Assembly: GCA_016401345.1 (NCBI GenBank)
Contig: JAEACG010000001.1
Span: 744,001-808,000, forward strand
DNA from: Fictibacillus nanhaiensis
Lineage (GTDB): Bacteria > Bacillota > Bacilli > Bacillales > Fictibacillaceae
DNA length: 64,000 nucleotides
Reading direction: 5' to 3'
Position numbers and translations under genes: made by a program. Position 1 is the stretch's first letter; the number at the start of each line of letters is the position of its first letter. Below, piece by piece: positions 37,441 through 51,799 of the stretch. Under the pieces are notes generated by a model that made no database searches, was not told the origin of the DNA, and saw nothing but the letters and a program-made list of their open reading frames with translations.

Positions 37441-37686
37441 AAAAAAAGCTAAACTTTTTCATTAGGGACCAATTTCATGGCGGTACCACCCTAATTCAAA
37501 GCTTAGCTTTACACTCTTTCATGATAACGGTATTTAACCGCTGGATATCTTATTATGGGAATAAGATACAGAACTCAGAGGCAGGTTCAATCGTTTGTCA
37601 GTAGAAGCTTTGCAGCCAAACAGCTTCCTCTCTAGAAAGACAGAATCGATTTACTAATCCTCTTCTTCGTTTTCTACTTCATATGT
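37441..37686 (-). promoter_or_regulatory. T-box riboswitch leader of proS
   Basis: The minus-strand leader of about 245 nt contains the conserved T-box sequence GGGTGGTACCGC (plus-strand 37480-37492 region), which reads the tRNA acceptor end. It ends in a terminator (AAGCTAA/TTTAGCTT arms, then seven T). Upstream elements resemble Stem I (AGAGG...CCTCT pairing near 37575-37640). A CCT triplet at 37583-37585 in the Stem I region is a candidate proline specifier. The gene and the specifier agree, but the fold was not computed. Confidence 0.9.
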
Positions 37687-47387: not shown

Positions 47388-47597
47388 TTAGGCTGCAATT
47401 GCCATTGGGTTTGTATTTGTTTTTGGTGAAACATGTATTTTACCAAATCCTGACGTGATAAAAATGATCTTAGCCGGCTCCTGCACCGTTTCTGTTTCTT
47501 TCACCTGTACTTCCGTTTTCATAGGAATGATGTTCGCATCCTCATTTGCCACTTCAGAATTGATCGGGATAACAGTACCTTTGCTCTTCTTATTCAC
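47388..47597 (-). CDS. Small protein with SsrA-like C-terminus, between HTH regulator and ClpP
   Basis: A 69-aa protein with no domain I recognise: basic start (MNKKSKG), an acidic/polar middle, one hydrophobic stretch (AKIIFITSGF) and the C-terminus NPMAIAA. The last residues resemble the ClpXP-recognised SsrA tag (ALAA). GTG 47597 overlaps the stop of the HTH gene (GTGA) and has GGAGG 9 nt upstream. clpP begins 16 bp after its stop. Coupled translation and the AIAA end suggest a ClpP substrate or reporter, but this is inference. Confidence 0.75.
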   Translation of the reverse strand: MNKKSKGTVIPINSEVANEDANIIPMKTEVQVKETETVQEPAKIIFITSGFGKIHVSPKTNTNPMAIAA

Positions 47598-48196
47598 GTT
47601 GTGCCGCCTCCTTCAGGTTTTGGATACATCGCCATTGAAACGTGATACACTTTTGCGTTCTCTTCGTTTGGTCTGTGGTGTTTTTGTATGAGAGTGGTGA
47701 GCATATCTGCATATTCCTGTAAAAATGCATTGCGGTGTTCCATGGTAGAAAGTGCTAGTTCCATTTCTACTACTGCGCTTGGTATCTCTTCTTCCTCCGA
47801 TTGCTCCATTAAAGAAATGGCATCCCGCTTCATCTTCTCTGTAAGGGATAACACATGAGCAAGAGCGGTTTGATCTTGGAGTTTTTTTATCGTATCAGAA
47901 GAGAGACCTAATGAATCTGACAATAAAAAAGAACGGCCGGCACTTACATATAGAACTTCTACAAGGTTCCTAACATTCCTTGTGCCTGCGCGAATCACAA
48001 GGCCCACTTTTTCTAGTGCTTTAAGATGATAATTAATCTTTTGAGCGGAATCGTTCATTCTTTTTGATAGCTCTGTCGCAGAACGCGGCTCTTTTAACAA
48101 ACTTATGAGCTCAGATCTTACAGGATGCAATAGTGCAGCTGCTTGTTCCGGTTCTGTGACAATAAACGTCTCTGGCATTCTTTGATTCCTCTTCAC
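47594..48196 (-). CDS. ArsR-like helix-turn-helix regulator of the clpP operon
   Basis: About 200 aa. An N-terminal winged helix of ArsR/HTH_20 type (HPVRSELISLLKEPRSATELSKRM, then KINYHLKALEKVGLV) is followed by a long helical C-terminal part of unknown role. Start choice is uncertain: GTG 48196 is 6 nt from GAGGTG, ATG 48178 is 9 nt from AAGAGG, and ATG 48202 overlaps the site. It is first gene of the operon. Its promoter has three TTACRT boxes at 18-bp spacing, which it probably binds. Confidence 0.85.
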   Translation of the reverse strand: MKRNQRMPETFIVTEPEQAAALLHPVRSELISLLKEPRSATELSKRMNDSAQKINYHLKALEKVGLVIRAGTRNVRNLVEVLYVSAGRSFLLSDSLGLSSDTIKKLQDQTALAHVLSLTEKMKRDAISLMEQSEEEEIPSAVVEMELALSTMEHRNAFLQEYADMLTTLIQKHHRPNEENAKVYHVSMAMYPKPEGGGTT

Positions 48197-48230
48197 TCTC
48201 ATCACCTCACTTCACAATAATATATGTTCG

Positions 48231-48290
48231 TTACATAAAAATATTTCTTTACGTAAAATTATTTTATTACGTTCAGTATCATTTTGTCAA
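48231..48290 (-). promoter_or_regulatory. clpP-operon promoter with three 18-bp-spaced boxes
   Basis: TTGACA (48285-48290), 18 nt, TAAAAT (48261-48266) on the minus strand. Boxes TTACATAA (48231), TTACGTAA (48249) and TTACGTTC (48267) begin exactly 18 bp apart. The last fills the spacer next to the -10. Confidence 0.6.
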
Positions 48291-48375: not shown

Positions 48376-48615
48376 TTATACAAACGGTACGATTCCAAGA
48401 ATGAAAAAGACCGTGGCCATTCCTGTGTTCAACCAAAACTCAGTTTTTTGATTAAATATTTTTCGCTCAACTGCACGAAAGATAAAGATCACCATCAAGA
48501 TTGAAAATAATACAGTGGGATTTTCCCAAGTCTTACCGTTATAAATAGCTAAAAGCAGTCCAAAAAACATAAGAACCATCTCTGTATACACCCAGGGTTT
48601 TGGACGTTTTTTCAT
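48376..48615 (-). CDS. Small three-helix membrane protein
   Basis: A 79-aa protein with three hydrophobic segments (about residues 8-24, 32-48, 60-78) and a basic start (MKKRPKPW). The family is not recognised. AGGAGG lies 11 nt before ATG 48615. A terminator follows, and the thi operon ends 71 bp upstream on the same strand, so it may be read from that operon. Confidence 0.7.
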   Translation of the reverse strand: MKKRPKPWVYTEMVLMFFGLLLAIYNGKTWENPTVLFSILMVIFIFRAVERKIFNQKTEFWLNTGMATVFFILGIVPFV

Positions 48616-51647: not shown

Positions 51648-51687
51648 TAAATTTTCAAATCATAAAGGAAACGATAGTTTATCCACG

Positions 51688-51775
51688 CCGCTTCCCTACG
51701 CCAGTATGAACTGGATCAGGTTCAAAGGGTCGAAAGTCATAACCTTCTCTCAGCTTAGAATAAGCACCCCTAGCG
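51688..51775 (-). promoter_or_regulatory. TPP riboswitch (Thi box) of the thi operon
   Basis: The minus strand carries the conserved aptamer blocks GGGGTGC, CTGAGA, ACCCTTTGAACCTGATC, and CTGGCGTAGGGAAGCGG. It is followed by the terminator at 51615-51647, so binding of thiamine pyrophosphate should stop transcription before thiD. Confidence 0.96.
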
Positions 51776-51799
51776 AAATAACAATATTGAGTTAACACA

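Follow-up and report, generated by a model that had tools for sequence, protein, structure and literature searches.

The locus described here, in a window of 64,000 nucleotides from Fictibacillus nanhaiensis (the window being the whole stretch of DNA that was analysed), raises the question of why a clpP gene should follow a gene for an ArsR-like regulator and another for a small protein whose end resembles the tag that marks proteins for the Clp protease itself. What is known of how Bacilli adjust the supply of Clp to demand comes mainly from CtsR and Spx. An earlier, sequence-only reading had proposed that the small protein, hereafter S, is turned over by ClpP and signals protease load to the regulator, hereafter R, a putative role that fits the anatomy of the operon and published parallels.

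The three genes lie on the minus strand in the order R, S, clpP (Table 1), and the ArsR-like regulator, the 69-residue protein and the ClpP are as first described, including the GTGA bases shared by the stop codon of R and the start codon of S. Two details have to be amended, as the gap between S and clpP is 15 bp on recount and not 16, and the stretch originally delimited for the operon, 47388..48290, stops short of clpP, which lies outside it (47372-46791). The promoter of the operon is called because it is conserved in relatives and not because of a bare pattern scan, in which the window gave 6 promoter-like sites against a shuffle mean of 5.7, i.e. no excess; a pattern with a 17-bp spacer had no match in the window and missed this promoter because its own spacer is 18. 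Terminator-like sites were found in excess (6 versus 1.3 in shuffles). Compared with plasmid records, the operon DNA had 45 matches, none covering 80% of the query, and the 10 rows listed all concern the clpP part only. Just upstream of the operon is a thiamine-gene group (51589-48687) of thiD-, thiM- and thiE-like ORFs, named by eye, and a 172-aa membrane protein, behind a TPP riboswitch (51676-51781, minus strand, 85.8 bits). Between the thiamine genes and R sits a 79-aa membrane-like ORF (48376-48615, minus strand) with sub-threshold Pfam matches only and a clear relative at the equivalent place of a related locus, L030 (2550-2789). The window also holds a T-box leader (37461-37676, minus strand, 120.7 bits).

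Table 1. Features of the R-S-clpP operon, in coordinates of the window
Feature	Position	Strand	Description or basis
R	48205-47594	-	ArsR-like (HTH_20) winged-helix regulator, GTG start, 203 aa; proposed autorepressor
S	47597-47388	-	GTG start, 69 aa, ends NPMAIAA
Core of S, IIFITSGFGKI, residues 44-54	47436..47468	-	Conservation in aligned members
AIAA codons at the C-terminus of S	47391..47402	-	Proposed C-degron; tail conservation
clpP	47372-46791	-	Canonical ClpP of 193 aa, one of two in the genome
Promoter match TTGACA-18-TAAAAT	48290-48261	-	11/12 positions; like arrangement in relatives
Operator ACGTAATAAAATAATTTTACGT (ACGTAA-N10-TTACGT)	48251-48272	-	Predicted; overlaps the -10 box
Second operator copy, one mismatch	48233-48254	-	Overlaps the first; middle half-site common to both
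Terminator-like hairpin 3' of clpP, 10-pair stem	46763-46739	-	Pattern scan

The protease gene had been taken for a second ClpP with an intact catalytic triad, and both statements stand. The triad consists of Ser98, His123 and Asp172 in the motifs GMAASMG, MIHQP and DTDRD, the protein passes the TIGR00493 cut-off of 308.6 bits with a score of 343.9, and a count of ClpP genes gives two canonical ClpPs in the genome (E 3.9e-88 and 3.5e-87), the other being encoded on another contig, besides three weaker ClpP-like proteins. By length and loops, the Clp-ATPases of the genome are ClpX-like (loop VIGF), ClpC-like (SLGF) and ClpE-like (KLGF), plus an HslU-like protein. In a tree of 94 ClpPs, made up of 67 operon rows (the own protein and those of 66 of the 68 Bacillota loci introduced below) and 27 other ClpPs, operon and other proteins are separated by 2 label changes, compared with an average of 23.7 in shuffles, none of 500 of which was as low; the deep forks have moderate support (80 to 93), with the operon ClpPs of Fictibacillus adjoining other ClpPs. 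The operon ClpPs of three Cohnella loci (L094, L103 and L110) fall inside the housekeeping type and the R proteins of the same three group with other Cohnella R proteins (95/84), a pattern in which ClpP has probably been exchanged in place with R and S kept; because of this exchange, S would not be tied to one ClpP lineage. Most of 23 host genomes besides the own one have one or two canonical ClpPs beyond the operon copy. A housekeeping ClpP was not found in the F. aquaticus genome (G427, locus L051), where the operon copy, apparently the only canonical ClpP, may be the sole ClpP.

Whether the small ORF beside clpP recurs in other bacteria was addressed with R as the query in a collection of species genomes, where at least 590 stretches matched, 406 were confirmed and the best 80 were kept, namely 68 loci of Bacillota and 12 from outside Bacillota (L112-L123). 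The 68 come from Fictibacillus, Brevibacillus, Paenibacillus, Cohnella, Gordonibacillus, one genome labelled Anoxybacillus, and Thermoactinomycetaceae. An S frame follows R in 68/68, one of them damaged (L072, without an in-frame start), and a ClpP, identified by phmmer search, is next in 67/68, with clpP in two frames in L102. As the loci of this best-80 set were recruited with R alone, the recurrence in 67 of 68 places the order R-S-ClpP beyond chance. Neither S nor ClpP was found in the 12 relatives outside Bacillota within the stretches examined, nor in L139, recruited by similarity of R only; the three genes recur at two loci, L043 and L138, from order-level searches. S itself is present in 25/34 genomes of the own family, in 14/397 of the own order (with a 13-row profile) and, in a class-wide draw, in 57/398 genomes and 22/145 genera, and a phylum-wide draw returned it from 1 genome in 398, the own one. 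From the class-wide sample, 55 of the 57 S-positive genomes were examined (30 + 25; the other two are the own genome and G003), and they have R in 55/55 and a ClpP in 53, the latter count including a broken copy (Melghirimyces); this sample and the R-recruited one are not independent, some genomes being common to both. From these sequences it looks as if many soil bacteria pair a protease gene with a small protein bearing an apparent degron for the same protease.

The Kroppenstedtia lineage (L072, L242) provides a case of decay, in which clpP is gone, with an epimerase-like gene or a by-eye fragment of one following, and remnants of R and S are left. In L242, S looks intact and ends QAA, with the end of R out of frame, and therefore S can outlast its own clpP. 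That clpP loss goes with decay of the partners is, with two related genomes, suggestive only.

S belongs to no described family as far as the models searched go, with no Pfam match reaching E <= 0.01 in any of 56 members, one weak NCBIfam match in a single member of the 56 (NF047423, E 6.7e-4) and, for S of the window, no curated Pfam or NCBIfam model matched above cut-off. Its most constant parts are a [ST]SGF core and the last two residues. Within the core, G and F are invariant in 56/56 aligned members, and the preceding residue is Ser in 66/67 loci of the best-80 set and Ala in L108 (SAGF). Among Fictibacillus, five of the six pairwise comparisons show no amino-acid change in the core against 2 to 6 synonymous changes, the sixth (L046) shows 2.5 amino-acid versus 6.5 synonymous changes, and the core is, by this codon measure, under purifying selection. 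The AF2 model of S is of low confidence (pLDDT 56.4), with a possible beta hairpin ending at SGF and a loose tail; such a loose, poorly modelled protein suits a Clp substrate and proves nothing.

The tail was read off with an S profile lacking the last 12 residues, run on the open frames of the 68 Bacillota loci; the scan itself is blind to tail residues, the profile being derived from S proteins of the very loci scanned, with first seeds picked by a tail pattern. Of the 68 S tails, 62 are AA, 4 are AS (from near-identical Paenibacillus), and VA and AC occur once each, compared with AA in 2 and AS or VA in 0 of 546 long ORFs from the same loci, R and ClpP included. Since the stretch from SGF to the end varies in length (10 to 25 residues in 66/67 loci, L108 with its SAGF not being properly measured), AA is anchored to the C-terminus and not to the alignment. 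With the first-listed locus per genus, AA is found in 12 of 12 genera (Kroppenstedtia omitted as damaged); the 55 genomes of the class-wide sample have AA in 50, VA in 4 and AS in 1, and S of L138 ends CA. In Fictibacillus the tail Ala codons vary synonymously only (GCA-GCC versus GCG-GCA), leaving the residues unchanged. The likeness to the SsrA tag noticed at first is thus strongly supported by the AA counts and by the genome's own tmRNA tag, GKQNNNLALAA, whose LALAA end is the xLAA-type C-terminal Clp signal; conservation of the last four residues, proposed at the time as a check, applies to the final two, where the loss of conservation that would have refuted the idea did not occur, as AIAA in its four letters is found only in Fictibacillus and the tail elsewhere is mostly xxAA. 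In contrast to the SsrA tag, the tail of S (47391-47402) is encoded in the gene and not added by tmRNA, and is fixed to one protein family. Published Clp tails, as excerpted from PMC5352834, include counterparts of AA, VA and AS, namely AA, LAVA (ClgR) and LAAAS (CarD), and B. subtilis ClpXP recognises poly-Ala C-terminal tails according to the excerpted text of PMC8138137. Judged from its conserved end, S is very probably degraded by ClpP.

R matches HTH_20 (PF12840) with 47.9 bits (cut-off 27) and is also above cut-off for the winged-helix family HTH_5 (PF01022); against the NCBIfam ArsR/SmtB metalloregulator model NF033788 it reaches 27.0 bits, below the cut-off of 55. Its AF2 model (pLDDT 88.7) has a winged helix and a separate helical C-terminal part. 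The archaeal protein PH1932 (1uly) is both the top Foldseek match and the best sequence match (E 5.3e-11), and Phr (2p4w), the heat-shock regulator of Pyrococcus, comes 17th as a weaker, full-length match; superposition on the two is weak (TM 0.34 to 0.46, rmsd 14 to 19). Like R, both are ArsR-like, about 200 residues long and extended at the C-terminus; unlike R, both are archaeal, and we know of no S or ClpP partner for either.

What R would bind is suggested by an inverted repeat which covers the -10 box of its promoter. ACGTAA-N10-TTACGT occurs with <=2 mismatches upstream of R in 68 of 69 loci, 50 of these exact, 13 with one mismatch and 5 with two, and in 0.6% of base-shuffled upstream regions; the operator is absent from the 12 relatives outside Bacillota (5 or 6 mismatches). 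The -35 to -10 spacing in the 68 loci is 17 in 54, 18 in 12 and 36 in 2, the last being loci where the second of two tandem operator copies scored best. In the class-wide sample the operator is present with <=1 mismatch in 30/30 and with <=2 in 22/25. Since 48251-48272 is the only exact copy in the own genome, R looks dedicated to its own operon. Besides the tandem partner, the genome has 9 other one-mismatch sites, 6 inside ORFs and 3 intergenic, and a wider regulon via such sites was considered and rejected, as no clp neighbour was seen (by eye, from the first 25 residues); sites with <=2 mismatches number 148, fewer than the 351 of a reversed control. From its position, the operator is what one would expect if R were an autorepressor with one target of its own, and autorepression by R is, with the site so conserved, highly likely. 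One Laceyella sacchari genome, apparently present twice (L246/L083), has R, S and ClpP and lacks an operator (5 mismatches) within the 170 bases that were searched, possibly a natural loss of autoregulation. Its close relative L247 keeps an exact operator.

How could a repressor, an apparent protease substrate and a protease serve one purpose? We propose, giving it about an even chance on the sequences compared, a self-limiting feedback loop on ClpP capacity in which the degron is carried by the separate small protein. R, bound to the inverted repeat that covers the -10 box, would repress its own operon, and S would be made together with R and would carry the SsrA-like C-terminal degron, mostly xxAA. 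As long as protease is free, ClpXP, or another Clp-ATPase with ClpP, would clear S fast; when Clp capacity runs short, be it that substrates overload it or that the other ClpP is lost or inhibited, S would persist and, through its SSGF core, lift the repression exerted by R. The output of S and of ClpP would then rise, and the new ClpP would clear S and so close the loop. Both the contact between S and R and the sign of its effect are what we infer here; that S acts in the direction of relief is slightly favoured, and as a co-repressor it would give the opposite loop. Against the loop speak the poor model of S, from which no interface with R follows, the tails that are not AA (AS, VA and AC, and CA in L138), the S that outlasts clpP in L242, and the operator-less Laceyella genome that keeps R, S and ClpP.

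The alternative that survives best, unlikely as it is, makes S a cofactor of Clp and not a signal to R, that is an adaptor or inhibitor which docks with its GF on ClpP or ClpX and which, by virtue of its AA tail, would be consumed along with the cargo. Clp-ATPases dock on ClpP through [LIV]-G-F loops. The invariant GF of S (56/56), beside the VIGF, SLGF and KLGF loops of the genome's own ATPases, and the almost constant place of S next to ClpP (67/68, best-80 set) would suit such a role, as would the precedent of MecA, a ClpC adaptor that is itself degraded (PMC8138137, in excerpt). However, GF in S is preceded by Ser (66/67) or Ala (L108) and not by Leu, Ile or Val as in the docking tripeptide, and the three Cohnella with a housekeeping-type operon ClpP have nevertheless kept R and S.

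Rather improbable is a second alternative, in which the tail is a degron, S is a short-lived peptide unrelated to R, and R senses a metal, a thiol or a small molecule. Many ArsR-like regulators of the HTH_20 group, to which R belongs, do sense small ligands, and the separate C-terminal helical part of the R model is in line with this, but the score of 27.0 bits is below the metalloregulator cut-off of 55, and a ligand for R leaves unexplained why an S frame is kept at the same place in 68/68 loci. Of similarly low probability, and marginally lower, is a degron in trans, whereby S binds R and its tail delivers the R-S complex to ClpXP, which would rid the cell of R whenever ClpXP is active. In 44 of the 67 loci with an S start (best-80 set), S begins no later than R ends, 26 of these with the 4-base overlap of the window, as for partners made in equal amounts, and R has no AA end of its own in any of the 68 Bacillota loci. 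Such delivery would, on the other hand, yield positive feedback on ClpP, or a switch, opposite in sign to ClgR and PopR, and there is no sign of instability of R. That the tail is an alanine-rich C-terminus without function, a single AIAA in a 69-aa ORF being unremarkable alone, is rejected as extremely improbable, being contradicted by the conservation counts (AA 62/68 versus 2/546) and by the purely synonymous changes of the tail Ala codons in Fictibacillus.

Under the proposed feedback loop, the cell may gauge whether its protease suffices by the survival of S. If this is true, a gene pair that reads free Clp capacity would be a simple, portable reporter of protease load, and would predict how Paenibacillus, Brevibacillus and their relatives react to ClpP-directed antibiotics. 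The loop also makes a direct prediction, namely that changing the last two residues of S from AA to DD switches the operon on. S stands for a further small-protein family, one with two tight motifs and no Pfam model, which is, on the sequence comparisons, the putative degron carrier in a new variant of Clp feedback.

Among systems already described, CtsR is itself subject to proteolytic feedback. It shares with the present operon the control of clp expression by a repressor and differs in its DNA site and in the kind of regulator, which here is ArsR-like and apparently has a site at a single operon. CtsR is described as a common clp regulator of Gram-positive bacteria in the excerpted part of PMC8419472, from which a second parallel is also taken, that of the Bacillus cereus group, where a second clpP likewise stands behind a transcription factor in a small putative operon. 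In B. anthracis Sterne a clpX mutant has this clpP, which shares a putative operon with a sigma factor, up more than 300-fold, and loss of ClpX is thus something to which a second clpP of this class can respond; that operon has a sigma-70-type first gene and two genes versus three here, and its description, within the same excerpt of PMC8419472, mentions neither R nor S. Among the papers listed from the open-access literature, no title or abstract opening names such a system.

Among circuits known from experiment, the closest in logic is that of actinobacterial ClgR and PopR, which control clpP operons through their own turnover by Clp (PMC9765437 and PMC5352834, both in excerpt). Streptomyces ClgR ends AA, and exchanging this for DD makes the protein more stable and clpP1P2 expression higher; the ends of mycobacterial ClgR and of CarD are LAVA and LAAAS, respectively (all from the excerpt of PMC5352834). 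The likeness lies in an AA-type C-terminal tail on a protein of a clpP control circuit, here deduced from sequence only. In ClgR and PopR, however, the degron is on the DNA-binding activator itself, whereas here the tail is on the separate S, and R is an ArsR-like presumed repressor with an AA tail in 0/68 Bacillota loci of the best-80 set. With the balance of probability resting in the middle, S may thus represent a new family of stand-alone protease-capacity sensors whose half-life is the signal, short-lived and mostly disordered, its only fixed parts being an SSGF effector motif for the autorepressor and an encoded SsrA-like degron, which would be the ClgR principle divided between two proteins and arisen in Bacilli together with a dedicated second ClpP.
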